From: Diplonema papillatum
Lineage: Eukaryota > Euglenozoa > Diplonemea > Diplonemida > Diplonemidae
Length of the DNA stretch: 64,000 bases
Reading direction: 5' to 3'
NCBI GenBank assembly: GCA_030068145.1
Contig: JAPJBO010000385.1
Location: forward strand, 62,001 to 126,000
A model generated the notes under the pieces. It had not been told where the DNA came from. It was given only the letters and a program-made list of their open reading frames with translations, and did no database searches. Positions 24,670 to 56,943 of the stretch are shown one piece after another. The translations under genes were made by a program, and so were the position numbers. Within the stretch, counting starts at the first letter, position 1. Each line of letters begins with the position of its first letter.

Positions 24670-26085
24670 TCACTGAGTAAGTTTGTAGAAGGATCCACCA
24701 ACGTAAAGCTGATGGAAGCGCAGAATCAGGAGAGCGGTCAGGGGATACCTACCCAGTATGTCCCGCAAGGTCCATTTCTGCCTCGGCCAACGGAGAAGGT
24801 CGAGGTATCTGGCTGTGACCCGGCATTTTGTGAATAGGTGTTCGTAGGAGAAGCCGGAGCCACAAGCCCAGCAGTGCCCTTTATTGGATGCCGACAGTCC
24901 GGGGACAAATGACTCAGCGCAGAGGTGCCCGCAGAAATCTTGCATTCTCAGGTGAACGCTTGGGGACTGGTTGACTCGAAGCAGCGAAACCGCTACCTGA
25001 GTGAGCCGATTCCACCGATTGTCCACGAGAGGTCGGTGACCACCAGTGCAACGGTAATGCGGATGAGACATGTAGTCCCGAGTGAGCACGGGGCAGTTGA
25101 CCGCTTGTTTCAGCAGGTCGGAGGCAGCCCAGTAGTCGAGGACCTGTAGTGCCGTGCCCGAAGTGACGCCGCGCTTCGCAAGGTCGTCCGCCTTCTCGTT
25201 TCCGACCAAACCACAGTGTGCCGGGACCCACATCACGTGCACACGAATATGGGGGAGGGAAGCGAGCACCCTCATCAGCCTCCAGTTGCGGCATAAAACG
25301 TGACGGGGGTTCTGCAGTCGCTGCACTTCAGACAAGGAGTCCGATAGCAGGTGTATGACCGTCACCTTGGCCGTGTTGAACGGGACGGTCTGGAGTTGTA
25401 GCGCCGCACGGATGACCGCTTCGTGTTCGGCATGGCAGCTGGAGGCGCAACGGATCATCCGATAGGAGAGACCGCGGAGGAATCGACCAGACCTGTTGTA
25501 AAAGGCAACCCCAACGCCCCCTACCGCACGCTTGCCGACACCAGTCATTGAGCCATCGGTGCATATTGTGAGATCAGCTGGAGGGAGCGCACGGATCGCC
25601 CGGAGGGTATGATCGAGCTTGACCGCCTTGCTGTCGTTGATGGAGACAATGGAAGCCAAATCGAGGTGGATTCTCATGTCGGGTTTGGGCCCCCATGGTG
25701 GATACGGGGCATGCGAGCGGATGGCGGACGGTTGATAATCATCCGACCGGAGTGCGAGCAAGTACTCTGCATCCTTGGCCGCTTTCAGCCACCTGGTGGG
25801 TTGTTGGACGTTCCCTCCAGGGGAACGCAACAGTTTCTGCCGCAGTCTGGCGGTCGCACGGAGAGCTTCCGACTTCCACGGCAGTAGTACCGCTTCTGCC
25901 AGCAGGGCGGCGCGCTTGGTGGAAACAGGGCAACCGGTGATCAAGGAAGCAGCCTTGTAGTGCAGTGTCTCAAACTGCGTTACGAGGTCGTCAGGAATGA
26001 GGCAGCCCCAGACACCCAGCCCGTACCTCCACTTGGCGGCGACGAAGGTGAGGTAGGCTGTCCGGATTGTGCCGTAGCGCCCCCG
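24670..26085 (-). CDS. LINE pol C-terminus: RT thumb and RNase H
   Basis: The frame is open across the 5' junction at 26086, so no true start exists. The first 60 residues (Y-G-x-x-x-W-G-C, then A-x-x-L-I-T-G-C-P) match the region after the RT palm in jockey/I-type LINEs. RNase H follows: C-T-D-G-S-M (about 25550), H-A-E-H-E (about 25420), L-S-D-S-L-S (about 25345) and V-P-A-H-C-G-L-V-G-N-E-K-A-D (about 25200), so all four acidic positions are present. A Cys/His cluster near the C terminus (C-x2-C...H-x4-C at about 24830-24870) fits the usual LINE CCHC tail. A 3' UTR of about 380 bp follows. Confidence 0.85.
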   Translation of the reverse strand, partial: RGRYGTIRTAYLTFVAAKWRYGLGVWGCLIPDDLVTQFETLHYKAASLITGCPVSTKRAALLAEAVLLPWKSEALRATARLRQKLLRSPGGNVQQPTRWLKAAKDAEYLLALRSDDYQPSAIRSHAPYPPWGPKPDMRIHLDLASIVSINDSKAVKLDHTLRAIRALPPADLTICTDGSMTGVGKRAVGGVGVAFYNRSGRFLRGLSYRMIRCASSCHAEHEAVIRAALQLQTVPFNTAKVTVIHLLSDSLSEVQRLQNPRHVLCRNWRLMRVLASLPHIRVHVMWVPAHCGLVGNEKADDLAKRGVTSGTALQVLDYWAASDLLKQAVNCPVLTRDYMSHPHYRCTGGHRPLVDNRWNRLTQVAVSLLRVNQSPSVHLRMQDFCGHLCAESFVPGLSASNKGHCWACGSGFSYEHLFTKCRVTARYLDLLRWPRQKWTLRDILGRYPLTALLILRFHQLYVGGSFYKLTQ

Positions 26086-26097
26086 CAAAAAAAAAAA

Positions 26098-27678
26098 TCC
26101 GCACATCCGGGCTCGCCTGGGGGTACGTGCCGACGGAGGCCAGCTTTCCGTCGGAGGATGCCGGGGAGGTGGGGGCAAACGTTCTACGGCCCGGGCCCTC
26201 AGCAGCCAGTCCGGGCCAGCCCGCGCCGATCCCCCAGCCGGCCTCCCCCGAGCTCGCCGGCGGGGAGCCCGACGCCCCCGCACAGGAGCCACACTCGCCG
26301 GTTCCGCACCCCTCCGTCGACGGGGCGATCCTGGATGAGGTCTGCGGGTCCGAGCCGGAGAGACCGACCAAGGGCACCAAGCGCCCCGCGTCGCGTTCGC
26401 CAGACGGGACGCCGGCGCCCGTGAGGCAGAGGCCAGTCGTCGGCGAAGGGCGGGGGGCAGGGTTCGCCGCGTCAGTGCGGGCTCTCGCCGCGCGGGTCAG
26501 GGACAGGGTGGCGCCACCACACGCCCTGCATGCACCCGCCGCCCCCGGCCGGGGGAGGGGCACAGCCATGGGGCGAACCCCCTCGGCCCAGGCTTCGCAG
26601 CCCAGCCAGCCGCTGACGCCTGTCCTGTTCCCGGACAGCATCAGGGCAGCGCACCTGGCGGGACCGGCGGGGCACGTGTCGTTGGGCAGGGGTGGGGACG
26701 ACCCGTGCGACGACGGGGACGTCCCCCGCCACCCGGGCCCACGCTCTCAAGGCCGCCCGGCCCAAGCAGCGGCCAGCGCCACGGACGTCCCCGCGGCAGA
26801 GTTCGTCTCCTCCGGGCGAGGAGGGGACGACCTCTGTGTCGACGGGGACATTGAGCCCAACCCCGGACCTCCGGGAGACGCTCCCGCGGCCCCGGCCGGG
26901 GCGGGCCCCGCCGGACCGCCGCAGCCGCAGCCGCAGCCGCAGCCACCGATCCCGGCGCAGCCAGTCGGGTCACAAGGCGCGGCGGCCGCCTGCATTTGCC
27001 GGAACGCAGCAGGGGCAGGCGAACGAAGGGGCAGGCACTGCAACTGGTGTCCGCGATCCCGGGCCTACCGAGCCCGCGTGGCAGCAGGACAGGATCCGGC
27101 ACCCAGGCCTCCGCCCCCCCAAGCCCCAGAGGTGGGCGCGGCCCAAGGCAGGGTGTTCCAAGGGGCGGCGCTCCCGTTCACCTTTGCCCAGGTGGCCGCA
27201 GCCAATGTGCCCACGCTGAACAGGGTGCCCACGACGGCGAAGCCGCAGGTAGCGGCCCTGTTCGAGACCGTGCTGCGAGCGGCATCAGACGACGCGGGGT
27301 GGCTGCGGGTATACGCCTTCGCCCCGCTCGTCCTGGCCGCCACCACGCGGGGGGGCCGAAGGGCAGTGACGGAAGCCCTCCGCCGGCGGGTTCGACTCTG
27401 GAGGGACGGCCTGTTCGAGACCCTCTGGTCTGAGGCCCAGGCCATCACGGCTGGGAAGGCACAAGGCCGCGCGCGCCGGCGCGCCTACCCAGTCGAGGAC
27501 GACCTGGACTACAGGGTCGAGCTCCAGACGGCGGTCAGGTCAGTTGACGACCTGGACGGTCCCACCGTGCGCCAGGTCATCAAGAGGGCGCGCGACAGGT
27601 GCTACTCGCGAGCCGTGTCTGCGCTGTCGGCAGCACAGACGGCCCCGTCGGACGAAGCCACCCTGGCACAGCTCAGAG
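26098..27678 (+). CDS. RLE-LINE ORF, N-terminal part with 2A-like motif
   Basis: The frame is open from the 5' edge and the first in-frame ATG lies near 26568, so the start is uncertain. The protein begins Pro/Ala-rich. At 26826-26870 it reads D-D-L-C-V-D-G-D-I-E-P-N-P-G-P, an exact D-x-E-x-N-P-G-P 2A motif. A degenerate relative (D-G-D-V-P-R-H-P-G-P) lies at 26697-26741 after the same G-G-D-D lead, as if duplicated. A Pro/Gln stretch and C-x-C...H-C-x2-C follow at about 26990-27056, possibly a zinc finger. The frame is interrupted at L-A-Q-L-R (27663-27677) by the insertion and resumes at 32067. Translation of the fused frame would give at least 1,460 residues. Confidence 0.75.
26697..26741 (+). 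other. degenerate 2A-like sequence
   Basis: Ends D-V-P-R-H-P-G-P: the Glu and Asn of D-x-E-x-N-P-G-P are replaced by Pro and His. Probably inactive in ribosome skipping. Confidence 0.5.
26826..26870 (+). other. canonical 2A-like ribosome-skipping motif
   Basis: D-I-E-P-N-P-G-P in the LINE frame; the skip would fall between the Gly codon at 26865 and the Pro codon at 26868. The preceding residues are less hydrophobic than in strong viral 2As, so efficiency is unknown. Confidence 0.75.
27669..27678. repeat. target duplication, left (CAGCTCAGAG)
   Basis: Ten bases repeated exactly at 32067-32076, flanking the 4,388-bp insertion in the LINE ORF. Confidence 0.85.
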
Positions 27679-27685
27679 GGGTCAT

Positions 27686-27832
27686 TTCCCATTATAGTAC
27701 ACACTTTCTTAGAGTTACCCATTATAGTACATACCTCTTAGAGTTACCCATTATAGTACATGTTTCCTTAGAGTTGATCAAGATAGTACATGTTTCCTTA
27801 GAGTTGCCCATTATAGTACACACCCTTGAAAA
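27686..27832 (+). repeat. E6 iterons, left arm
   Basis: About five units of 29-30 bp, alternating CCCATTATAGTACATG and ATCAAGATAGTACATG, each followed by TTTCCTTAGAGTT. Confidence 0.85.
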
Positions 27833-28144
27833 CCCCCGGGAGAACCCCAAAAATGCCAAAAAAATGCACAGAGAGATAGTTTCTGCTTTTTTTTCGTTTT
27901 TTTTAGGGACCCCCTTCCCCCGGCCGCTGCCATGCACGGCATGGCCCTGCCATGGGTGCTGCTGGTTGGGCACGGGGTCGCACCACGGAGTCAATTGCCA
28001 TTATAGTCCGTGTTTTGTTAGATTTTGCCATTATAGTCCAGGTCGCTTAGATTTTTCCATTATAGTCCATGTTTCCTTAGATTTTTCCATTATAGTCCGC
28101 GTTGTTAGATCTACAGTCCTGTCCGCTGTGAACAAGATTTTGGC

Positions 28145-28296
28145 AAGTTTGGGTCCCAAGTTGGGGACCCAAGTTGGGGACCCAAGTTGGGGACCCAAGT
28201 TGGGGACCCAAGTTGGGGACCCAAGTTTGGGAACCCAAGTTTGGAACCCAAGTTTGGGAACCCAAGTTTGGGAACCCAAGTAGGGGACCCAACTTG
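28145..28296 (+). repeat. 13-bp tandem repeat, left
   Basis: Units of TTGGGGACCCAAG / TTGGGAACCCAAG. The inverted counterpart is at 28676-28855. Confidence 0.85.
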
Positions 28297-28625
28297 GGGT
28301 CAATTCCCATTCACGAGCAATCTTTAACTTTTTGCCCATTCACGAGCATGGCTTAACTTTTTGCCCATTCACGAGCATGTTTCAAACTTTTTGCCCATTC
28401 ACGAGCACCTTAAACTTTTTGCCCATTCACGAGCATGGCCTAACTTTTCGCCCATTCACGAGCATGGCCTAACTTTTCGCCCATTCACGAGCATGGCCTA
28501 GCTTTTTGCCCATTCACGAGCATGCTCAAAACTTTTTGCCCATTCACGAGCATGCTTCAAAATATTTGCCCATTCACGAGCATGTTGCAGACCTTTTTGC
28601 CCGTTCACGAACTTTGTCTACTCAC
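28297..28625 (+). repeat. CATTCACGAGC iterons, left cluster
   Basis: About eleven units of roughly 29 bp (CCCATTCACGAGCATG then AACTTTTTG), starting at GGGGTCAATTCCC. The inverted cluster is at 30645-31002. Confidence 0.9.
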
Positions 28626-28675
28626 GAGCTATTCTTAACTGCACAAAGAGCGCGAAGGAAGTCTGCTGTTCTCTC

Positions 28676-28855
28676 CTGCAACTTGGGTCCCCAACTTGGG
28701 CCCCAAACTTGGGCCCCAAACTTGGGTCCCAAACTTGGGTCCCAAACTTGGGTCCCAAACTTGGGTCCCAAACTTGGGTCCCAAACTTGGGTCCCAAACT
28801 TGGGTCCCAAACTTGGGTCCCAAACTTGGGTCCCAAACTTGGGTCCCAAACTTGC
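28676..28855 (+). repeat. 13-bp tandem repeat, right
   Basis: About thirteen units of TTGGGTCCCAAAC, followed by CTTGCCCAAAATCTTGG, the complement of the left-side AAGATTTTGGCAAG. Confidence 0.9.
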
Positions 28856-28978
28856 CCAAAATCTTGGTCACAGCGGACAGGACTGCAGATCTAACAATGT
28901 GGACTATAATGGCAAAATCTAAGGGCTTGGACTATAATGGCAAAATCTAAGGAACATGGACTATAATGGCAAAATTTA

Positions 28979-29505
28979 CTGGGGGGGGTCGAATTCAGGA
29001 GGTACCTTGAATAGAAGAGGTACCTTGAATACAAGAGGCATTTTGGAAATCTGGAAAAAAGTTGGATTTTTTCTTGGTCCGCATAACAGACCTTTTTCGA
29101 CGGTTTTCTGATCGCGATGAGCTCCGATGAAGAGAACCGCGAAAAATAGACCCGGGGACCAAGAATTATGTGCGTGGTTCGTGGGTCTTTACCAGATGCG
29201 GGGCACCGGGCGTGGAACCCACAGGTTTGCAATGGAAAGGACGGAAATCGACCCACTGGTTGGTGACAATTCTTTGCAGGCCCGTGCAGCAGACCTTTTC
29301 CGGCGAATTTGTGCTCGCGTTCAGCTCCGATGAAGAGAACCGTGAAAAATAGACCCGGGGACCACAAATTACGTGCGTCTTTCAAGAAGAAGGGAGTTCC
29401 CGCGGTTTCCGGGTTTGCGGTACTTTTTTCCATTTCTTTTTCGGGAAAATTGCAGGATCGGCACGCCGAATAGAAGAGGTACCTCTTGTATTCGACCCCC
29501 CCCAG
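28979..29505. mobile_element. 527-bp TA-target element (E8) with G8 termini
   Basis: The termini CTGGGGGGGGTCGAAT are inverted, with TA at 28977-28978 and 29506-29507. Removing it with one TA restores AAAATTTAAGAATCGTGGAC, which fits the E7 iteron. Its body is two units of dispersed repeat B, so it is non-autonomous. Confidence 0.85.
29080..29370 (+). repeat. dispersed repeat B inside E8, two units
   Basis: Each unit contains CTCCGATGAAGAGAACCG and AAAAATAGACCCGGGGACC. Related to 17815-18105 and 51280-51490. Confidence 0.8.
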
Positions 29506-29545
29506 TAAGAATCGTGGACTATAATGGCAAAGTTCCCGGCTTTGC

Positions 29546-30640
29546 GACCGCACAGGCTCATGCCTAATATGCGGCAGCCTAACAAACCCGATGAAGAAAA
29601 AGTGGTAAAGGTGACCATGGCCATCTCCATTCTTCTCCGCGCCGGGAAGCTCCCGCACCGGCCCAGAGCTCAACCTTTTTACAAAGGGAGCCGAGGGCCA
29701 GAACAGGAACTTTGACGCGAAAAAAAATGGCGAGGGGGTGAGCCCGAGAGGGGGCATTTTAGCGGGCGAGGGGTCACCTCGCGACGAAATCTCAAAGCTT
29801 GTCTCCCTTGATTCCCAGTCAACGACAACACAATCCTGGTTCAATCCTGGTTCTGCAAGGGGTACTGTTCAGGATGTGTCTAACGTGCTCTAAGTCAGTG
29901 AGTTGCAGTAGTTCTTGGACTCGAGATTCGATTTTTCAAATGACCAAACAAGGAAACCGTACACCGCGAGAGTAGGAAAAACGTAGAAAGGGAAAGTTTT
30001 TTTATGGTAACAACCGCGGTTGTCATTATCAAAAAGTGACGGTTGGCAGCGTACTGTGGAAATTACCATACAGGTGATACACATACGCACAAACAAACGG
30101 CTGTGCGTAAATAATAAGAGCCACGTCACTTTTTTTTGACCGCACTACCCTGAGCCAAATCCTGGACGTGGTTTCAGGTGGTAAATTTGGCAAATGATCA
30201 TGATCAGAAGGTCCTACTTGGGCGGTTCAGTTTCCTCACACATTGCATGTGGCTAAGAAAAAAACTCAAAGGTCGAAATACATCTGTCAGAGCAGGCCGG
30301 TGTCAATACCCAAAGTACGGTAATACCCAAAACGCCGTTTTAAACGGGCCGACTTTCATCATGGTCGGCGACGCAAAACTATTAGGAAACACTTGAAGAA
30401 GGAAACGTAATTGAGAAAAACGGGATCGTCGGAAACACAAAACAGAACTGGACAGTCGACATGCACGACTGAGCTGTTGAGAGATCCGTATCACCGAATG
30501 GGAGCGACAGAATTGAACTGATCCTGCTCTAAGCTGAACGGCTGAAAGTTTGAACTCGCCTACACGTGTAATGTGCACTCGGTAGCTTGAGCCAATTTGA
30601 CTTATGGCAAGTTATGCTTGAATGAATAAGAATACTCGTG
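29546..30640. other. no gene seen inside E6
   Basis: AT-rich DNA with short ORFs only; no inverted partner could be assigned. Confidence 0.4.
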
Positions 30641-30644
30641 AAGG

Positions 30645-31002
30645 GCAAAAAGTTTTGAGCATGCTCGTGAATGGGCAAAAAGTTTTGAGCATGCTCGTGA
30701 ATGGGCAAAAAGTTTTGAGCATGCTCGTGAATGGGCAAAAAGTTTGAAGCATGCTCGTGAATGGGCAAAAAGTTAGGCTATGCTCGTGAATGGGCTAAAA
30801 CTATTGAGGAATGCTCGTGAATGGGCTAAAAAAAAAATCATGCTCGTGAATGGGAATGGCAGTGCTCGTGAATGGGCGAAAAGTTAAAACATGCTCGTGA
30901 ATGGGCAAAAACTTCGAGAATGCTCGTGAATGGGCGAAAAGTTCAAGCATGCTCGTGAATGGGCAAAAAGTTTTGAGAATGCTCGTGAATGGGATTTGAC
31001 CC
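30645..31002 (-). repeat. CATTCACGAGC iterons, right cluster
   Basis: About eleven units of GCTCGTGAATGGGCAAAAAG, ending in TGACCCC, the complement of the left cluster head. Confidence 0.9.
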
Positions 31003-31204
31003 CCCAACTTGGGGACCCAACTTGGGTCCCCAAGTTGCAGGAATGCGTGGATGGTGAGAGCTGCTCTTGAACACCAAAAGGCGAGCATGAAAAGTAAGAA
31101 TGAGCTTTTCACGCAGTGCGGACCCAAAGTTGGTCCAAAATCCGCCCAAACTTGGACCTACAAATTTGAACCAAAACTTGAACCCAACTTGAGTCCGCCA
31201 CTCC

Positions 31205-31720
31205 TGCACCGAGATCACACCGCTGGCAGTTAAATGCCTGAGCAAGGTGGTGGGAACAGAGATGAAACATCTCATCCTCACCGATGGAAAGGTCTCGGCG
31301 AATGCCGTCGCCAGCGCTTTCCAAAGCAAGACCGGTGTCGCAGATCATGCCAGATGTGACTTACCGAGTCGCGTACGATGCTATAAAGCGCGTCGTTGAC
31401 GAACAGTACGGAAGTACTGAATCGGGAGCAGAACACCGCCTGGGAAAGTTTTCTCGGGTACGTAGAAGGGGTTTACGGCGACTTGCCAGGGTGCACCCTG
31501 ATAACAGTCGGGTTGTGCACGCAGCCTGTGTGGCCCACCTGCAAGGCAATGTCAAGACCAAATTCAAGACACAAGCCTACAACAACCACGTGTGGGATTT
31601 GGAAAACAGAAACAATTCTCGGAGGTTCCTGTTGACACAAGACGTCAACAGGAACACAAAGGGGGAAAACCCCATCCGGGGTCACAAGGCCTGGACAGCC
31701 CTGTTGCTGAGCTGTTGAGT
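31205..31720 (+). pseudogene. possible Mutator-like transposase remnant
   Basis: Two overlapping frames give a pattern of N-A-V-A-S-A-F followed by Y-R-V-A-Y-D-A-I-K-R and, after a frame change near 31410-31440, S-F-L-G-Y-V-E-G-V-Y. This resembles the conserved stretch before the catalytic domain of Mutator-like transposases. No DDE residues or SWIM finger were found. The position inside E6, with its 10-bp duplication, supports the reading, but the match is weak. Confidence 0.3.
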
Positions 31721-31794
31721 GACCCTGACCACAACTAATTCCTGGTTTCTCATCATAAGAGACCGTACTATGCACAATAATGCACAACTATGTA

Positions 31795-32060
31795 CTATAA
31801 TGGACAACTCTAAGGAAACATGTACTATCTTGGGTAACTCTAAGGAAACATGTACTATAATGGGTAACTCTAAGGAGGTATGTACTATAATGGGTAACTC
31901 TAAGGAAAACCGTACTATCTTGGGATGTACTATAATGGGCAACTCTAAGGAAACATGTACTATCTTGATCAACTCTAAGAGGTATGTACTATAATGGGTA
32001 ACTCTAAGGAAACATGTACTATAATGGGTAACTCTAAGAAAAACCGTACTATCTTGGGTA
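31795..32060 (-). repeat. E6 iterons, right arm
   Basis: About nine units of GGGTAACTCTAAGGAAACATG plus TACTATAAT, inverted relative to 27686-27832. One unit is partly duplicated at about 31920-31935. Confidence 0.85.
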
Positions 32061-32066
32061 TTGACT

Positions 32067-34847
32067 CAGCTCAGAGACCTACACCCGGCCGCCGAGGAGT
32101 GGCAGGGCGACCCAGCGATGCAGATCCCCAACGTGGCGCGGCCCGCGCCGAGCGCCGTGCGGAGGCTGCTCAAGAAGATGCCGAAGGGCACGGCGGCCGG
32201 CCCCTCCGGGCTGTCAGCTCAGCACCTGCTAGACCTGTGGGACAGCTCCGGCTCCTTCAAGGAGGCCGTGGCGGATGCCGTTTGGGCGGTCTCGTCCGGG
32301 AGGGTACCGACGGCCGCCAGGCCATACCTCTACGGGGCCAAGCTGGTCCCACTGGTCAAAAGGACGGGCGGGATCAGGCCCATCGCCTGCGGCGAGATTC
32401 TGAGGAGGGTAGCCGGCAAGGTCCTCGCGTCCGACCGGGCGGTCAAGGAACTCGGCCAGAACGTCCTCCTGCGAAGCGGGCAGGTCGGAGTAGGCGTGAA
32501 GGCCGGCGCGGACGCCGGGGTCCTGGCCGTCCGGAGGGTGGCGGCCTTGTACCGCAGGGAGGGCGGGGCAAGTAAGGGCGTCCTCCAGGTGGACCTGGAG
32601 AACGCATTTAACTCCCTGCAGAGGGAGGCGATCATCCGCAGCGCCAGCCGGCATGCCCCCCAGGTCCTGGCCTACACCCAGGCGGCGTACGGCAAGCACT
32701 CCATCCTGCAGGTGGGGGACAAGACGCTCACATCTGAGTGCGGGGTGCAGCAGGGGGACCCGTTGGGGCCCCTGCTCTTCAGCCTGGCGATGCACGACGT
32801 CGTCTCGCCGCCGCCGCCACCGGCCGAAGCAGCGGCGCCGCCGGCCGGCCCGGCGGACCCACCCGGGCCAGGGGAGGGCGTCGTGCCGCCGCCACCAGTC
32901 GGACCTGCAGGCCCAGCAGGCGCGCCGGTCGCGGCGGACGAAGCGGCGCCCCAGGGACAGCCAGCGCGCGAGCTGGCACCAGTTCAAGGGCCACCGGCAG
33001 TCCCGGCCCAGGCCGGCCCCCCCCCGGGGGCGGCAGAGCCGCAGGGGATAGCGCACGTCGACCCCGGACCAGCCCAGGTCCTGCCGGCCCCGGAAATCCC
33101 GCCGGCGGTCGAGTTGGGGGCCCCAGGAGCCGAGCCCGAGCCGCAGGGCCCGGAGGGACAAGGGCAGCCGGAAGTCGGGGGGCCGGAGGCAGCGCTCGGC
33201 CATTCAGCGTTGAGCCAAGCCGACCTCGATCTCCTGACATTCTACCTTGACGATGGAGTGTCAGGCGGAGACCTCGACGCGATCGCGCGCTGGCTGCAGG
33301 GATACGAGCGGCGGGCAGCGGCCGTCGGACTGCGCCTGAACCGGGGCAAGTGCAGACTGGCGATCGCGGCGGGGGCGGAGATACCCGACGGCCTGCAAGG
33401 CATCGAGACGTGCTCGCTCGACGAGATCGAGCATCTGGGAGTCCCGTGTGGCTCGCCAGAGAAGATCCACGCGTTCGTCGAGCGGGCGGCACAGGGTGCG
33501 GAGAGGAAGCTGAGGATGATAGCGTCCCTGCCCGACGCGCACGTGGCGCTCACGCTAACGAAGTTCTGTGCGGGCTTCGTCGGCGTAGTACATCTCATGC
33601 GCGCGACGGGGTCCGTCTTCGACTTCGCGGGAGTCGACCGGGCCACCCAGTCCTGTCTCGCGACTATCACCGGGATACAGACCGACGAGGCGGCGTGGAC
33701 ACAAGCGTCCCTCCCGGTCAGGATGGGTGGCCTCGGCCTCCACAGCTGCGCAGACGTGACAGGGATTGCGCACATCGCGGCGGCACTAGATGGGGGGACG
33801 CATCTCCCCGCCCTCGTGTCCGAGGCCCTGGGGCCACGCCTCACGTGGCAGCAGGACGACACCGTCCAAGCGTCCCTCGCGGACCCGCGCCTTGCAACGT
33901 ATGAGTCCGTCCTGGAGAAGATCCAGGACGTCATGCAGGCGCGGACCCAGTACGAGGGGCGAGGACAGAAGGTGTGGTCGTCCGCCTTGGCCACCGAGAA
34001 GCGGAAGAACCTCCTCGACCTGCTAACGGAGGAGCTCGCCCGCTCGAGCCAACTGCAGGGAGCGGCCCTGTCCCAGGCGCAAGACCGGATCCGGGCGAGG
34101 ATCCAAAGCAGCTCCGGCAAGCACGCCTCGGCGTGGCTGTACGGCAACCCGGAAGCGGATACCGGGATGTGGTTGTCCTCGGCCGAACTGGCGGTGGCAG
34201 TACGCCTTCGGCTGGGGCTGCCAATTGCGGCCGCGCCAGGGGAGTGCCGCCTCTGCGGGCACGGGGCGACCGACGTCATCGGCTCGCACGCCCAAACGTG
34301 TTTCGGCAGCGGCCGCCGGACGCGCCTGCACAACGCGCTTCGGGACATTGTCGCCGACTTCGCACGTCGAGGGCTGCTGGGCCCCTCGATCGAGCGAGCC
34401 GTGTTCGCGAACACGCGGCGCAAGCGCCCGGACATCAGCTACGTCCGGGACGGCACCACCGTCCTACTTGACGTCGCAGTCACATACCCCCTACAGCTCT
34501 CGCAGCCCCACTACGCGACCAGGGCCGCAGCGGAGCCAGGGGGCGCAGCAGCCGCGTATGCTGTTGCCGTCAAGGAGCGTGTCTACAACAGGATCATCGC
34601 AAATGAGCCGGACCCGCGGGAGTGGCGAGCGGTGCCGCTAGTTGTAGACACGTTCGGGGCCTGGTGCCCAGGAGCAATCACGGAGCTGCGGCACATCGCC
34701 CGCGCGAACGCCCTCCGTGAAGACCGGACCGCTTCGGCCGCCTGCCAGGACCTCTTCCACCGCTTGAGCTTTTCTATAGCCCAAGGGGTGGCGAGGATCG
34801 TAATTGCATCTGGTGGGGCGCGACCGGACGAAGCGAATCCACCCTGA
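32067..34847 (+). CDS. RLE-LINE ORF, RT and restriction-like endonuclease
   Basis: Continues the frame broken at 27678. RT: K-G-T-A-A-G-P-S-G (about 32185), G-G-I-R-P-I-A at about 32370, V-D-L-E-N-A-F-N-S (motif A, about 32590-32616), G-V-Q-Q-G-D-P-L-G-P (motif B, about 32741-32770) and F-Y-L-D-D-G (motif C, 33240-33257). Between motifs B and C lies a Pro/Ala/Gly-rich insert of about 135 residues (32805-33210), which is unusual. The C-terminal part has C-x2-C-x8-H-x4-C at about 34245-34301, R-x-H-N, R-P-D-I (34425-34436) and L-L-D-V-A-V with the Asp at 34470. This is the CCHC plus PD-(D/E)xK endonuclease of R2-group LINEs. No RNase H is seen. Confidence 0.85.
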   Translation, partial: QLRDLHPAAEEWQGDPAMQIPNVARPAPSAVRRLLKKMPKGTAAGPSGLSAQHLLDLWDSSGSFKEAVADAVWAVSSGRVPTAARPYLYGAKLVPLVKRTGGIRPIACGEILRRVAGKVLASDRAVKELGQNVLLRSGQVGVGVKAGADAGVLAVRRVAALYRREGGASKGVLQVDLENAFNSLQREAIIRSASRHAPQVLAYTQAAYGKHSILQVGDKTLTSECGVQQGDPLGPLLFSLAMHDVVSPPPPPAEAAAPPAGPADPPGPGEGVVPPPPVGPAGPAGAPVAADEAAPQGQPARELAPVQGPPAVPAQAGPPPGAAEPQGIAHVDPGPAQVLPAPEIPPAVELGAPGAEPEPQGPEGQGQPEVGGPEAALGHSALSQADLDLLTFYLDDGVSGGDLDAIARWLQGYERRAAAVGLRLNRGKCRLAIAAGAEIPDGLQGIETCSLDEIEHLGVPCGSPEKIHAFVERAAQGAERKLRMIASLPDAHVALTLTKFCAGFVGVVHLMRATGSVFDFAGVDRATQSCLATITGIQTDEAAWTQASLPVRMGGLGLHSCADVTGIAHIAAALDGGTHLPALVSEALGPRLTWQQDDTVQASLADPRLATYESVLEKIQDVMQARTQYEGRGQKVWSSALATEKRKNLLDLLTEELARSSQLQGAALSQAQDRIRARIQSSSGKHASAWLYGNPEADTGMWLSSAELAVAVRLRLGLPIAAAPGECRLCGHGATDVIGSHAQTCFGSGRRTRLHNALRDIVADFARRGLLGPSIERAVFANTRRKRPDISYVRDGTTVLLDVAVTYPLQLSQPHYATRAAAEPGGAAAAYAVAVKERVYNRIIANEPDPREWRAVPLVVDTFGAWCPGAITELRHIARANALREDRTASAACQDLFHRLSFSIAQGVARIVIASGGARPDEANPP

Positions 34848-35051
34848 TGCAGGGGGAAGAGTCACTGCATCGCGGGTTTTTTTACCTGGTCGGACCTGCA
34901 CTCAGATGCAGGCCAGCCCAGGTCGCAGTGAGGTGGCGTTCACTGTGTGCTGAAGAAGCATTTCTTTGGACTACCGCTCCGGAAGCAACCGGATACCGGC
35001 AGCCCCGCTGTACCAACATGGCTAGTACAGTGTCCCGCGCTCCAAAAAAAA
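34848..35051 (+). other. RLE-LINE 3' UTR and poly(A)
   Basis: GTCACTGCATCGCGGG through GTCCCGCGCTCC plus A8 matches 41461-41656 closely. Short direct and inverted words around GCAGGCCAGCCCAGG suggest RNA structure. Confidence 0.75.
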
Positions 35052-35528
35052 GCATTTTTTTTTTTTAGATGAGGCACTTTTTCCTTCTATCCTGTCTTCT
35101 TTGGAGAACAAAAAGGAAAGGAGAGGAAGAGGCCAGCTGGGCTGATTGTTCTTGCCGTGGGAGAGGTTCTTTCGCTGGTTCCTGTAGACATGTTGGTGTG
35201 TTTTGAAAAGATGCTTTGGCAGCCTTCTGTAGTATGCTGCTAATCACGTCGGAGACCCCCGTTTCGGCCCCTGAGCTCGTTACGCATCCCCCCACACGCG
35301 GGGCACTCGTCAGACGAGTTACGTGTGAGGGGTTCTGTCCTCGTGAGGGTACAGATTGACCTGACACTCGGGACCGACAATGATTCTTGAATCGAATGAT
35401 GTGTCGGTTGGCCTTCCCTAATGTCAGGCAGGGTCTCCGTGAGGGCAAAGGCCCCGTTTTTCTGTAGCTGTGTGTGCGTTCGGTTGTTGAGAAAGGACGG
35501 AAGAGCGAAGCGAACAAAGGTTCTTTTG

Positions 35529-36258: not shown

Positions 36259-39200
36259 GCAAGAGGCACCACATTCTTTTGGCAGCTCCGGAGAGCCGCG
36301 TTCCAGTTTTCGGGCAGGCTTTACGGGCCTCTTCGGGCCGGAAGGCTATGCAAGGGGGATTAGGTGCGTGGGTGTCCAGTTTCTGAGCCTTTCACTCGAA
36401 CCTGCCTAGTGGCGGTTGAGTGAGGTCAGGTGGAAGACCCGTTGTTTGCTGTAGGGCGCCGATACCGCTTATTGCTTGTAGTCAAGTGCGCTTCTCCCCT
36501 TTGGGCCTTAAGGCATGCCAGAGAGACACAAGACACATGCAAGAGTGGGAAGGGCTATGGTACAAGGGGGGGGGATAACTGTGTGTGGGTGTCCAGTATC
36601 TGAGCCTTTCACACAAACCAGCCAGGTGGCGGTTGAGTGAGGTCAGGTGGAAGACCCGGGAGACCTCTCTGGCTTCTTTCTTTCTCTGCCACTGGAACTT
36701 TGAGGGGGGGAAGTTGGAATGTGGGAATTGGTATGGTGTGGCGGAGCCCACGGTTGCTTGTTTGTTGCGGGCCTCTCCCCGTAGGGCCTTGACGGCCGGG
36801 TATCGAGGCACCGGCGGGAAACGTTGGGGACCGACTAAGAGTCAGACACTGAAGTCAGAGGTCAGAGGCTGTGTACTGGGCATGGTCTGAAGATCGGCGC
36901 CCGCTCACTCTGCCCCGGCGGCCGGGGTGCCGAAGCAGGCGTTTACTGAGACGTTAGGCGGGAGCAGCTGCAGATCGACCGTCGGCGCAAGATGGCGTCT
37001 TCGGAAACGCCGCGAGGAGTTGGCGTCTGGCGCGTCCGAGCGGTACAGCCCGCAGCGCGCAAGTTGGTGGTGAGCGCCCTCAGCGAGAGATCGCGTCGTC
37101 CGAGTCGGCGGAGCGCGAGGAGGCGGCGTCAGGCGTTATGGAGCGATTGACGCCGCCGCCCACGGGCTCGGCGGACGTCTGGCCGGCGAGGATACCGTAA
37201 CTCGGCAGAGTGCCGCACCTCTGCAGGTACGCCAGAGCGAGTTCCGGAAAAACGAAGAGGATTGCCCAGAGGCGCTCCATGGCATCGACGGGCGGCGGCT
37301 TCGCATGGAGGCGGCTCTTCGCGTCGAGGTCGGCGTCCATCGTCAGCCTGGACAGCGCTGCAGCGGGGGCGTCACATCCGACGAAGAGGTGGAGTAGCGG
37401 GGCCAACGACCGGGTGCCGCAAATAGGGCACGGGAGAAACGCCTGTCTGCGATCCGCCCTCGAGAGGTCGCGCCATTCGGTGGCGTACATGGTCATCACC
37501 AGGTGGTGGTGGCCAGTGCGGAGCTGCCGCACCTCTCTTTCCGCCCGTGGTGCCAAGTGCTTGGGGCGGGGGATGCGGCGGCCAGAGACCAACCTGGCGA
37601 ACGACGACGGGTTCCTGAGGAGGGTGGCCCTGTCCAAGGCGTCTCGTGCTCCAGCTTCACTGCTCTCCAGCCAGAGGACGGAACGATAGCGGCTGTTAGC
37701 GGCCGTGGCGCAGAGGCGTGCCGAGAGCGGAGGGGGTAGATTCTTGGCCGCGGCGTCGGTGGCCGCCCGCATGAACGCGAGTGCACCACGTTTTGCGGTC
37801 TTGTCCGCCCTCTCGTTGCCTTCGAGGCCGCAGTGGCCGAAGACGAACTGCAGCGTCACGGTGTAGCCCAGCGACTCCAACTCGGCCAGGTGCAGCCAGA
37901 TCGCGATTGGGTACGGCTGCGTCTGGCAATGGGGGCCGTGGCTCAGCGTCATCAGGAGTGACTGAGAGTCACTGAGGACGAGGATGTTGAGCGGCGTCGG
38001 GGTTGGCGGGAGGAGGCGCAGGAGGAACTTCAGGCAGCTGTAGAGCGCGAACTCCTCGGCGCGGTAGCTGTGCGGGTGTTTGCCGGCGGGCAAAGAGGCA
38101 TCGAACGTGCGTCGGTCGCCGGAGAGCTTGACGGGCAGGCCGTGGTCCGGCTTGATGGTGACCGACGGCCCAAGATCAATAAACACGCCGGCAGCCCCCC
38201 AGGTCGTACGGTCCGCCGTGCTCCTCAGCCACGGGCGTAGGGCAGCGCTGGCGTTGGCGTCGCAGATCGAGGGCAGAGGGGGGTCACCGTGTACAACGGA
38301 GCCGTCTGGCCAGGCGACGCAGTCCGGGTGGGGTAGTTCCGCCAGGCGTTTCAGCACCGCTTGTTTTTTCTCCGCATTGCTGGCGTGCTTGCGGACTTTC
38401 AGCGACGTGTAGATCTCGACGTCGGGCCTGGGAACCCAGGGGGCGAACAAATGGAAGTCGCGGAGCTCCCGACGGCAACCGTCCGTGCCCGCTTTCTTGC
38501 GGATGTTGTCGGACGTCGACTTCAGGAGCGTGTCCAGGGAAAGCTCGTGCGCCCACAGAACCTTGTTGAATTCAACCTTCTCCCGGAGGGCCGCGATCCT
38601 GCACTTTGCGAGCGCGCGGATCGGGAGGATACCAGTCTCCTGTTGCCCGGCGAATTCAGCGACGCCTTTGCGACAGCCCAGGATGAGGGTAAGGGCACGA
38701 CGATGCATGCGTTCAAGTGTTGTGAGGGGCCCATTAGCGGGGAGGATGAATGGCCCGTAGATTCCGAGTGCGTACGTGTACGTGGGTAGCACATAGGAGA
38801 GATACAGGGTGCGGAGAACCGTGCCGTTGAAGCCGTAATCCTTGCCGGCCAGGTGTCGAAGGAGGTTCATCCTCAGCGAGAATCCATCGACAACCCGTTG
38901 GAGGTGAGGGAGGAAGGTGAATCCTTGGTCGATGGTTAACCCAAGAAGCTTCACTTTGTCAACCCACTGAAGGGTAACCACCGAGTGGAGCAGTGTGAGC
39001 CCGGCATTGGCCTCTGTTACGGGCCCGAACGCGATGCCAACGAATGTTTTGCCGTCATGTGGCGTGTTCGTCCCCACCAATCTACCCTCTGCCGACACTC
39101 GCCGTTCGGTGTCAGCAGGGGGAACAGGGACGTCAGCCCTCGTCGCCTTGAAGACTACGTTCGGTGGGGGGAAAGGGGCTGCGTTCTTTCCAACGAAGAA

Positions 39201-40186
39201 GACACCTCTGGTCTTCAGGACGGACAGGGACATCAGCGCCTGCGCCGTCCAGCGCTCCACCACGTCGACAACATCTTGCGCGTACTGCTCGAGGGCGGCA
39301 AACGTGCGGGCCTCCACTGCAACGCCGTCATCATCAGCATACAGGGAGAAGGTTATCGTCGCCCCGACGTTGTCCAGATGGATGCGGCGCTGCAGCCGAT
39401 CGAGGTCCGAACCGAGGTCGTCGATGTAATACAAAAACAGAAGGGGGCCGAGCACCGTCCCCTGGGGGACGCCGGTATACAAATCGAAGAAGCGGCCAGT
39501 CGCTCCGTCGATTTTGTAGGCAGCCTTCCTGTTCCGTAGGAAGGCCTCGATCCAGCGAAGGAACTTGGCGGGCACCCCTCTTCGCTGCAGGATGTCCATC
39601 AGCTTGCCGTGGTCGACGGTATCGAACGCGTTCGCCAGATCGAACGACAGCAAACACGTGAAGAGCAGACGGTTCCTGGCAGAGTCGAGAGCCGAAACTA
39701 TCGAGAACAGCTGCTCTTCGGGACCGCGACCCTTGCGGAAGCCACCCTGCCGCGAGTTAAAACGCCGGACCTCAGGATGTTGCGGGCTTTCCGTGAGGTA
39801 CTCGAGCCGATTCTTCACGATGACTTCCATTACCTTGGAGATCACACTCGTTAGAGATATCGGCCGGTAACCCTCCGGCAAGGAGTGGTCCCGTCCAGGT
39901 TTCGGGACGGGGACGACGTGGGCGTCTCGCCAGGATTCGGGAACGAAGCCTTCCTCCCACGAAATGTTGACCAACTCAAGGATGAGGGCCCTGGCACCGT
40001 CGGTGAGTCGGCGGAGGAACTCACTGCAAAGCCCGTCAGGGTCGAGCGAAGTCTTCGGGTCGAGGTTGTTGAGGGCCCGATCGAGCTCGTCGGCGGTGAT
40101 GAGCCCGCAGCCAGCGTCGTCGTTGGATGGTTCTTTAGCGGGGAACCACGGCGGCGGTTTGGTAGCTGTCGAACCGCAATCTTTCT
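36241..40186 (-). mobile_element. RT/RNase H LINE, 5'-truncated
   Basis: Minus strand: the frame starts at the truncated edge near 40186 and stops at 37080. A 3' UTR of about 820 bp follows, with two direct 80-bp repeats (36363-36443 and 36580-36660), ending GGTGCCTCTTGC plus A18. The 3' end resembles that of the LINE at 46321-49409. Confidence 0.8.
37080..40186 (-). CDS. LINE pol: RT and RNase H
   Basis: The first ATG is at 39974, but the frame is open and conserved up to 40186 (D-P-D-G-L-C-S-E-F-L at about 40040), so the 5' end is lost. RT: P-V-P-K-P-G-R, Y-R-P-I-S-L-T (about 39860), F-D-L-A-N-A-F-D (motif A, about 39640), G-V-P-Q-G-T-V-L-G-P (motif B, about 39465) and Y-A-D-D-D (motif C, about 39340). 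RNase H: A-W-P-D-G-S (about 38315), R-A-E-E-F-A, L-S-D-S-Q-S (about 37970) and G-H-C-G-L-E-G-N-E-R-A-D-K (about 37830). The tail has C-x2-C...H-x4-C at about 37360-37430. All catalytic acids are visible; this is an I/jockey-like LINE. No upstream endonuclease remains. Confidence 0.88.
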
Positions 40187-40216
40187 CTCAAAAAAAAAAA
40201 AAAAAAAAGCAATCTT

Positions 40217-41460
40217 TTCGTCATCGTCGTCCACCTCATGCGCGCAGTGGGGGCCGTCTTTGACTTCGCTGGCATCGATCAGGCCACGCAGTCTTGCCTG
40301 GCGACGATCACGGGCATAGAGACGGACGCATCCGCCTGGGCCCTGGCTTCCCTTCCCGTCAGGCTGGGCGGCTTGGGCCTGCACTCCTGCGCAGATACAG
40401 CGGCGATCGCGCACATCGCGGCCACCTTTGACGGCGAGGCTTGCCTGTCGTCCCGTGAACCGTCGTGGACCACACTTTCTGTCCACGCCCCCCGTAGTTA
40501 TCCCGTGCCTGCAGAACGTCCTGAATCTTCTCCAGGACGGAATCAAAGGGTGCAAGGCGCGGGTCTTCGAGGGACGCTAGAAAGGTGCCGTCCTCGTTGA
40601 GAAGCATCGCGTGCGGCAGGACGTAGGGGGTCACCAGGCGAGCGGCGCAAGGCCCTCCTTGACTCGATGACAGAGGAGCTTGGCCGGTCGGGCCAGCTCC
40701 AAGGGCCGGCACTGGCCCTGAAGCAGGTCCAAATCCGGGCGCGGATCCAAAGCTGCTCCGGCCAGCATGCGTCCGCGTGGCTTTACGGCAACGCGGAGGC
40801 ATCCGGCTTCGGCTCGGGCTGCCCATCGGCCCCATGCCGAGCATCTGTCGTCTCTGCGGGACAGGCTCGGCAGACGTTGACGGAGTGCACGCGCGTAGTT
40901 GCTTCTCCGGCGGCCGCCGGACGAGAATGCACAATGCACTCCGCGACGTCATCGCTGACTTCGCCCGCCGCGGGCTGCTGGCCCCGGCGGTCGAGCGCCC
41001 CGTGTTTTCGAACACGGAGCGAAAGCGCCCGGACATCAGCTATGTCCGGGACGGCACCACCGTTGTGTTAGATGTCGCCGTCACCTTCCCCCTGCAGCCA
41101 TCGAATCCCCAGTACGCTAAGAGGGCAGCGGAGAAGCCAGGGGGGGCGGCGACAGCCTACGCAACAGCTGTCAAAGAAGGCAAGTACCGCGGCATTATCG
41201 ACAACGAGCCAAACCCTCGGGAATGGCTCGCTGTCCCGCTAGTCGTGGACACCTTCGGAGCGTGGTGTCCTGGAGCACTCACGGAGTTGCGGCAAATAGC
41301 CCGCAAAAGCGCCCTCCGTGAAGACCGGACCGCTTCGGCCGCCTGCCAGGACTTCTTCCACCAATTGAGCTTTCAGGTAGCCCAAGGGGTGGCAAGAATA
41401 GTCATTGCATCTGGTGGGGCGCGACCGGACGAAGCGGTCCACCCTGTTGCAGGGGGTAGT
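40217..41460 (+). pseudogene. broken RLE-LINE pol
   Basis: 40222-40447 encodes H-L-M-R-A-V-G onward, like 33590-33790. Next, 40450-40635 reads correctly only on the minus strand (L-E-D-P-R-L-A-P, V-L-E-K-I-Q-D-V, G-Q-K-V-W-S). From 40637 the plus frame resumes (K-A-L-L-D-S-M-T-E-E-L). Near 40795 a frameshift/deletion removes about 10 residues. The endonuclease part (C-x2-C...H, R-P-D-I at about 41027, L-D-V-A-V) is intact in its own frame at 40777-41529. Confidence 0.8.
40450..40636 (-). other. inverted segment within the LINE copy
   Basis: The minus-strand translation aligns with 33850-33990 of the plus-strand copy; flanking segments on both sides are plus-strand. Confidence 0.75.
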
Positions 41461-47852: not shown

Positions 47853-49407
47853 TCAGCCGGACTCAGAGTCGCTCTCCCGCGGCCGCCACTGGCTGGGGAG
47901 AGGAGTTAGTTCGTCATCCCCCGTGTTGCCAGGTTCCGTCGAGGAGGACGACGACGACATCGCAGGGGACGAGACCGGTGTGCGAGTGGAGAGGTACGGG
48001 GAGGGCTCTTCTTCTCGCTCCTGACTCTCCAGAGATGGGGGTCGAGCCGCCTCCGCGTCCTTGCGCAGTATCGCATATGTCGGGATGACATCGATCCGCT
48101 GCAAGTAGCGCAGGGCTGCCTCCGGGTGCTTGAAGAGCAGCTCCCATAGGCGAACTTCGATCGCGGCTGACCTGTCGAATCCAACTGCGTCCCACATAGC
48201 TGCCCGTGCTGCTCCCGACTCCGCGTGCCGACACGAGATGAAAATGTGTGGAAGGAAGTTATGGACCCGGTGTCCACAGAGGGGGCAGGGTCGGAAGTAC
48301 TGCTCCTGCTCTGAGGCCGGGAGGCTCCTATACCCCGTAAAGTACCGGGTGATAAAGAGACCGTGGTGCATCGTTCGGAACTGGCGGATTTCCTTCTCTG
48401 CCCTCACGGTCAGTTTGTCCGGCACTGGGATCTTGCGTCCCCCAACGATCTTCACGAACGGCATGCCTACAGCAAGGCGGCGAGCCCTCACTATCGCACC
48501 TTTAGCTCCCCTCTCGCCGTCCTCCCTGAGCAAAAACAGCTTGAAGCGGTTTGTCGCTTCGACGTACGAGAGCGGCGGCGGGCGGGAAACTCCGGCAGCG
48601 AGGGTCAGGTCGGGGGACTGCGTCAGTTGGCGGGCTAGCAGAGCAGCCTTCTTCGCCAGCTTGTCAGCGCGGTCATTCCCGGGGAGCTTGCAGTGACCGA
48701 ACACGAACTGCAGGATCAGAATATACCCCCTCCTGGCGATGTTGCAAAGTTTCAGCCAGATCAGCTGGTTCATGAACCGCTTCTGTCGGTGGGGGCCGGG
48801 GGCGAGGTCTTTCAGAAGCGACTGCGAGTCGCTGAGCACCCACGCCACCTTAGGTTCATCGAATGCCATCTGCGCGGTTGCTTCCCGAGAGGTCTCTTCA
48901 TCCAGGATTTCAACCGCATTGAGGAAAGCGACCTGCTCCGTGCGGAAACTGTTCGAGTGGGCCCCGACCGGGCAAGTCCAAGCGATGGCGTTACCGTCCA
49001 CCGGTCGCCTCCAGTCCGGGCCACGGTCGCCGAATGGTTTCTGCACATAGACCCCGCCGCCTCCCCACACGGTGAGGTCGGTAGTGTTGATGGCCCACGG
49101 CTTCAGCTCGGCTGGTCCCGTGTACAGTGGCAGCCGAGCCCCCGTCCGGGCGGAGCCGTCCGCCCATGCTATCCGGTGGGGCTTGGGGAGTGAATCCAGC
49201 CTGGTTGCCACCGTTCTTCTGTTGACGGCCGGGTCTTTCGACCGCTTTTTGTCGAGCGTGCTGTGTACCGTCACCTTGGGGGCACTTTCCCAGGGTTTAA
49301 ACGGGCGGTACATCGGGATCTCACGGCTCCTTTTGTTGAGGCGTGCGCGCGTGTTCAGTTCCGCGAACTTCAAGAGCAGCAGACTGCGCGTGTCCAGCAC
49401 CTCGGAC
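47853..49407 (-). CDS. LINE pol C-terminus: RNase H
   Basis: Open across the 5' junction; no start. RNase H: A-W-A-D-G-S (about 49165), R-T-E-Q-V-A (about 48945), L-S-D-S-Q-S (about 48825) and F-G-H-C-K-L-P-G-N-D-R-A-D-K (about 48680). The tail carries C-P-L-C-G-H...H-I-F-I-S-C at about 48235-48290 and Y-L-Q-R. It is clearly related to the C terminus of the LINE at 37080 (R-Q-x-R-T-x-H-H, Y-L-Q-R-C), so they belong to one clade. A C-terminal acidic/Ser tail is extra. RT is lost by truncation. Confidence 0.85.
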
Positions 49408-49409
49408 CA

Positions 49410-49459
49410 TTTTTTTTTTTTTTGGAGCGCGGGACACTGTACTAGCCTTTTTTTTTTTT
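49410..49459 (-). other. stacked poly(A) tails with a 24-bp LINE end
   Basis: Minus strand: A12 (49448-49459), then 24 bp (49424-49447) identical to the RLE-LINE 3' end at 35020-35043, then A14 (49410-49423), then the RNase H LINE body. Confidence 0.85.
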
Positions 49460-49592
49460 GAGTAAGCAACTACGGAAGACATGCAGGGGGCGAGAACTGC
49501 ATTTACTTGTACGGGCAAGTCGTTCTTTTGTTCCTTTTGTCAAACTAGGAAAGAAGAAGGACGGACTCTTCCTGTGCATGGAGTAGAACTCC
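49460..49592 (-). repeat. family X 3' end, copy 3
   Basis: Near-identical to 24148-24290, including GCTTACTC before the tail. Truncated at the same GGAGTTCTACTCC point. Confidence 0.85.
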
Positions 49593-56528: not shown

Positions 56529-56940
56529 ATGGCTTTTGCATTCGGTGCAGATGGCTGCCAGAATCCACTCGAAGCTCGCGAACGCGAAAGGACCGCAATC
56601 GTTTCCCACGGACCTCGTTTATGCGCCGACAACCCCGTCACTCAGAGTATGGAATTCAGTGTTGTCGTCACGGAGTGCCTCACAAAGGAAACGTATTTAT
56701 GGCACAATGGAATTCTTCTACTCGTCAGCATAATGAATGGAGAAGACACATTTGGATTTGCAGCAACGTGCCTTCAAATCTGGAAAACAGTTTGTATCGA
56801 TTTCCCAACCGCGATCGCGGATTTTCTTGTAAAGCCATGTGCTTTGCTTCCTGGTGCAGATCCGCGATACATGAGGAACTGCTCAGCTCTATCAGCTAAA
56901 AAACACACAGGACTCGCTGCGTACGGGCTGCACCGTCCCG
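56529..56940 (+). CDS. possible upstream exon of the ankyrin/filamin-like gene
   Basis: ATG at 56529 (GGGATGGCT) opens 165 codons that end inside the next gene in another frame. The segment to about 56940 is hydrophobic-rich with several Cys and unlike noise, but I recognise no domain. A splice from near 56924 (GTACGG) into the downstream frame is possible and not provable here. Confidence 0.35.
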
Positions 56941-56943
56941 CGC

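Follow-up and report, generated by a model that had tools for sequence, protein, structure and literature searches.

Tandem 2A-like peptides in the single open reading frame of an R2-like LINE from Diplonema papillatum

An interrupted LINE copy and its class

The window, the whole 64-kb stretch of D. papillatum DNA analysed here, contains an interrupted LINE copy on the forward strand. An open frame carrying two 2A-like sites begins at 26052 (+) and covers 546 codons (26052-27689), and homology to an intact copy of the element (L021) was found from near 26104. The segment 26104..27678 (+) holds the 5' part of the 5'-truncated ORF, from a Pro/Ala-rich region to the pre-RT region, of what we term below an RLE-type LINE. 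The ORF is then split by an insertion of about 4.4 kb (27679..32066), which is rich in tandem repeats (30, 29 and 13 bp), bears imperfect terminal inverted repeats (GGGTCATTTCCCATTATAGTAC and AGTCAATACCCAAGATAGTAC) and is flanked by a 10-bp target duplication, CAGCTCAGAG, at 27669-27678 and 32067-32076. This insertion looks like a non-autonomous DNA transposon, which we take to be perhaps MULE-like. The remainder of the ORF, with the RT and the C-terminal endonuclease, occupies 32067..34847 (+) and ends in a stop codon at 34845-34847. Truncated at its 5' end and split by the 4.4-kb insertion, the LINE copy of the window is dead, and because of the truncation near 26104 its N-terminus is not native.

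Only one in-frame ATG was read within 26052-27689. It lies at 26568, 5' of both motifs, and encodes a Met that is internal in the intact copy L021 (residue 1115). The first-pass annotation had named a frame starting downstream of 26870 as the case against its own reading. Because the only ATG precedes both motifs, no such start is possible before the insertion at 27679.

The catalytic part was examined for the class of the element. An RVT_1 match was obtained at 32358..32807 (+; Pfam E 7.5e-10), and a FYLDD motif is located at 33240-33254 (+), with a Pro-rich insert between the two. Further downstream are a CCHC zinc-knuckle pattern, C-x2-C-x10-H-x3-C (34245..34301, +), which is invariant in both window copies, and an RLE-like motif PD-x12-D, PDISYVRDGTTVLLD (34428..34472, +). 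The second copy, at 40217..41445 (+), is a relative from the same element group that lacks its 5' part and has a broken frame; it is 72% identical over the endonuclease part. When the RT was compared to PDB, the best matches were R2 proteins for the single sequence (E 4e-8), and the best three for a four-member profile were likewise named R2 (E 4e-10 to 3e-8). Behind these came 8gh6 (E 1e-6) and 8ibw (E 1e-5), which bear the name reverse transcriptase-like protein and are presumably Bombyx R2. LINE-1 ORF2 appeared after the R2 matches in the profile search, at E 0.035 or worse. The endonuclease stretch was collinear with that of R2, including PD-x12-D; taken alone it was not significant, with an i-Evalue of 35 for the profile and 5.8e3 for the single sequence, and Pfam gave no match to it. 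An AlphaFold model of the RLE region from the two window sequences was unusable (pLDDT 34). No APE domain was found by Pfam in the N-terminal parts of L021 and L032 or in the window ORFs, and the sole Pfam match in the N-terminal parts scanned was a sub-threshold Cornifin match in L021. Because the RT was closest to R2 among solved structures, the PD-x12-D stretch was collinear and no APE was detected, we call the element an R2-like, RLE-type LINE, a term that carries no clade assignment and derives from the PDB matches of the RT and the collinear alignment. The first-pass annotation had likewise read an endonuclease of the R2 group. No relatives of the element were found in viral contigs or prokaryote genome contigs.

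The window contains several other features. LINE ORFs or fragments are located on the reverse strand at 24673-26000, 37083-40187 and 47856-49469; RVT_1 was detected in the second, and RNase H matches of varying strength, two of them below the Pfam cut-off, in all three. About 3.5 kb at 20482-24046 matches itself at 14-bp shifts and is open in several frames on both strands. At 56875-61569, Pfam detected ankyrin and filamin repeats in a long open frame, probably a host gene.

Intact copies and the layout of the ORF

The 271-Mb assembly containing the window was searched with the protein encoded at 26697-27599. The search returned 131 scored matches from 2,480 first-look candidates, and these grouped mainly at about 100, 83, 67 and 65% identity, the window stretch itself being 100% identical to other copies. 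No stop was present within the match in 129 of the 131, and 69 of the 131 scored copies sit in open frames of at least 2,000 aa. The sequences of 20 short loci and 20 longer stretches were read.

Intact copies contain a single ORF of about 2,050-2,380 aa from Met to stop. In intact copies with a 5' end, it extends about 855-1,130 aa upstream of the first 2A-like site (site 1). The copies form four subfamilies, A to D, and in those with a 5' end the ORF starts with MAAPDPGG (A and B) or MPPSPGG (C and D; two copies show only MP). Such an in-frame start was absent from L022, L027, L030, L036 and L039.

The N-terminal part of the ORF comprises two CCCH-type zinc-finger patterns, a CxxC...HxxxH-like pattern and a long Pro/Ala-rich stretch, in this order, followed by the two 2A-like sites, a Cys/His cluster, the RT and the C-terminal endonuclease. 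The CCCH and CxxC...HxxxH patterns were recognised by eye, and Pfam gave no zinc-finger match in the N-terminal parts of L021 and L032. The 2A-like sites are thus in frame between two coding regions of a single ORF, CCCH upstream and RT-RLE downstream. A Pro/Ala-rich region lies upstream of the sites, as first suggested, but the predicted upstream product is a large protein with CCCH patterns rather than a short Pro/Ala-rich leader.

The arrangement of copies was also recorded. Subfamily A copies occur head to tail, about 7.4 kb apart, on G000:C2062 (L023, L024), C1784 (L026) and C2654 (spacing only). At the three junctions read, two on C2062 and one on C1784, the poly(A) that closes the 3' UTR is immediately followed by the 5' end of the next copy. 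Many copies among L021-L026 and L032-L038 begin after an A tract, which gives Lys runs in frame, and three of eight 3' ends (L021, L025 and window 35040-35070) show a T tract that adjoins the poly(A) or starts three bases beyond it. This suggests A/T tracts or poly(A) tails as insertion targets.

The two 2A-like sites and their conservation

Site 1, GRGGDDPCDDGDVPRHPGP, is located at 26685..26741 (+) and is non-canonical, with P at position 14 and H at position 16. Site 2, GRGGDDLCVDGDIEPNPGP, is located at 26814..26870 (+), and its core octapeptide D-I-E-P-N-P-G-P occupies 26847-26870. In the published 2A mechanism, the break at site 2 is expected between Gly 26865-26867 and Pro 26868-26870. 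The exact core claimed for this position is real: it was the sole match to D[VI]ExNPGP in the six frames of the 64-kb window, for which composition predicts 1.4e-4 matches, and the chance expectation for the 546-codon stretch 26052-27689 is 2e-6. Site 2 follows the pattern GD[D/N]LCxDGDI[E/H]PNPGP, and site 1 lies 37-44 residues upstream. The hexapeptide preceding the site 2 core was DLCVDG or DLCCDG, and NLCVDG in three copies. Just 3' of site 2, a Cys/His cluster, CICRNAAGAGERRGRHCNWC (26991..27050, +), was read from the sequence and is a possible zinc finger; it had no Pfam match, and one position varies among the aligned subfamilies (HC in A and B versus HR in C and D).

To count the sites, distinct copies in 34 loci were used, and six longer stretches repeating copies already counted were left out. 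The counted copies were the best matches to the query spanning the sites, so that truncated copies are under-represented; the count does not include scored copies with a match starting only 3' of the sites. Both sites were present in all 35 counted copies, namely 21 of subfamily A (including the window copy), 5 of B, 4 of C, 4 of D and one D-like copy; the conservation across further genomic copies proposed as a check therefore extends over four subfamilies. Since the subfamily A copies are near-identical, the independent evidence amounts to four subfamilies at most, all from one genome. The site 2 core was DIEPNPGP in 21 copies and DIHPNPGP in 14. The site 1 core was DVPRHPGP in 26 copies (A and B), DVQRHPGP in 4 (C), DVERNPGP in 4 (D) and NVERNPGP in one (L040), so that site 1 was canonical, or the N12 variant, in 5 of 35 copies. 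The sister motif ending at 26741, 129 bp upstream of site 2, is a duplicated motif as first described, but it is not decayed, since it is conserved across subfamilies and canonical in one of them.

The pN/pS ratios were calculated from one representative per subfamily, giving six pairs. Every pair gave 0-0.19 at site 2, and five of the six gave 0-0.18 at site 1, compared to 0.44-1.14 in the linker, in the 200 columns upstream and in the stretch downstream. The exception was site 1 between C and D, the two closest subfamilies, with a value of 1.0; three amino acids are replaced there between C and D, namely D by V at the third residue ahead of the core, Q by E and H by N. Fisher tests, which treat sites as independent, gave p values of 1e-9 to 9e-7 in the four of six pairs tested. 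The part preceding the RT, divided into 1,605 windows of 20 columns each, had a mean A/B-to-C/D identity of 0.39; 44 of these windows scored at least as high as the site 1 window and 25 at least as high as the site 2 window. Segments with at least 0.8 A/B-to-C/D identity upstream of the RT were the CCCH fingers, a KRPASRSP motif, the two sites and the pre-RT domain. The pN/pS values indicate that purifying selection acts at both sites.

The pattern G-D-[V/I]-[E/D/H/Q]-x-N-P-G-P had 885 matches in the assembly versus 0 for the reversed pattern. Among the 100 matches listed, position 14 was Glu in 49 and His in 51, with neither Asp nor Gln. These 100 matches represent only 20 distinct 26-mers (7 Glu and 13 His), and are therefore mostly repeats of a few families. 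In other LINE families, the motif ran in frame into an APE-like stretch in all six fragments fetched (two judged by eye only), and an exo/endonuclease-phosphatase domain was confirmed by Pfam in all four fragments scanned. A motif placed ahead of an APE-like endonuclease, as in these six fragments, was previously known from APE-type LINEs. One APE-type LINE, L043 (G000:C3:102270-105070), provides a second tandem 2A case in this genome, with two GDVHPNPGP sites in frame at a distance of 252 bp. In one family, pairs of 2A-like motifs lie 336 bp apart (G000:C23:91283/91619; C45:229845/230181; C80:431267/431603).

Proposed ribosome skipping and alternative readings

We consider it likely, from the conserved cores and their position in the ORF, that a 2A/StopGo peptide divides the single long ORF of this R2-like LINE during translation. 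Site 2 would make the ribosome skip the Gly-Pro bond and release an N-terminal ORF1-like protein with CCCH patterns (about 1,180 aa in subfamily A), which probably binds RNA. A separate RT-endonuclease of about 1,190 aa, with Pro as its first residue, would follow. Site 1 would be an old duplicate retained by selection, canonical in D and non-canonical in A, B and C. It may serve as a second skip site of altered efficiency or as a regulator of the product ratio, with partial or tuned activity. Of the initial interpretation, the 2A core in an R2-like LINE, the duplicated motif and the conservation were upheld, and the views of the upstream product and of site 1 as decayed were corrected.

The variants at the two sites were compared to known 2A sequences. 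PMC12846837 describes viral variants carrying H14, H16 or N12 that were active, each in its own natural context; E or H at position 14 of site 2, and N12 of one site 1, are of kinds active there. DLTxDG is given in the same paper as a class of upstream hexapeptide. The DLCVDG of the element resembles this class, but a counterpoint is that its Cys stands in place of the Thr of the published class, and altering the characteristic residues upstream left hardly any activity in nearly every case reported there (PMC12846837).

The element was also compared to other LINEs. Among APE-type non-LTR retrotransposons, trypanosome L1Tc and the elements of Odon et al. 2013 reportedly bear 2A. The element shares with APE-type 2A LINEs an in-frame 2A-like peptide upstream of the catalytic protein; unlike the six fragments of this genome, in which an APE-like endonuclease follows the 2A, it gave no match to APE, ends in an RLE-like stretch and encodes a long CCCH protein ahead of the sites. 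Its RT, zinc-knuckle region and PD-x12-D stretch are ordered as in R2 and RLE-type LINEs. To our knowledge, R2 makes one protein from one ORF and has no 2A, whereas in this element a CCCH region of about 1,180 aa (subfamily A) precedes the break predicted at site 2. We also know of little work on how RLE-type LINEs yield more than one protein per ORF.

Utopia RLE elements, which target U2 snRNA genes, are similar in having N-terminal zinc fingers, RT, and a zinc finger with RLE in one ORF, and differ in that the main text of PMC4640811 has no occurrence of NPGP or of "self-cleav". 2A in non-LTR elements and in multi-2A viruses is treated in parts of PMC4981915 and PMC11512398, and the accessible portion of PMC5009743 added nothing on LINEs with 2A. 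Among the titles and opening lines of abstracts searched, none described 2A in an RLE-type LINE. Multi-2A-NPGP picornaviruses resemble the element in having several 2A sites separated by short tracts, but theirs are viral polyproteins with inter-2A tracts of about 50-150 aa (PMC11512398, in part).

Three other explanations were weighed. The tandem pair could be a dosage device, in which site 1 would partly stop or skip and site 2 would skip, giving more ORF1-like protein than RT. This overlaps with the skipping reading and is credible but somewhat unlikely: both sites are conserved, some 2A of multi-2A picornaviruses apparently terminate translation (sections of PMC11512398) and a tandem pair also occurs in L043 of the same genome, but core positions 14 and 16 of site 1 vary among subfamilies. 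It is rather improbable that the repeated GRGGDDxCxDGDx...PGP is a conserved protein motif, such as a binding, metal or protease site, that merely resembles 2A. Site 1 of A, B and C has neither E14 nor N16 but is conserved to the same degree as site 2, which would allow a different reason for the retention of the motif, and the Cys and the GRGGD lead are conserved as strictly as the core. However, all 35 site 2 cores are D-I-[E/H]-P-N-P-G-P, which falls among the variants tolerated in 2A, the conserved block, about 20-25 residues long, matches the length reported for 2A activity (about 25 aa), and 2A-like motifs are abundant in the genome and present in other LINEs. A chance match or functionless relic, and likewise simple decay, was rejected as highly improbable, since although the window copy is truncated and interrupted, only 1.4e-4 matches are expected in the window, both sites are conserved across subfamilies under apparent purifying selection and 69 of the 131 scored copies sit in open frames of at least 2,000 aa.

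A broader form of the skipping reading is offered tentatively, as a possibility suggested by the sequence comparisons. R2-like elements may have acquired 2A as a gag-pol-like splitter between the CCCH ORF1 protein and RT-RLE, the conserved tandem pair with its non-canonical site 1 may tune the product ratio, and host His-14 2A peptides may be as common as Glu-14 ones.

The four subfamilies provide a natural series of core variants (E14, H14, Q14, P14, N16 and H16). If the skipping reading is true, 2A occurs in the RLE-type class, and ribosome skipping would not be confined to APE-type LINEs.
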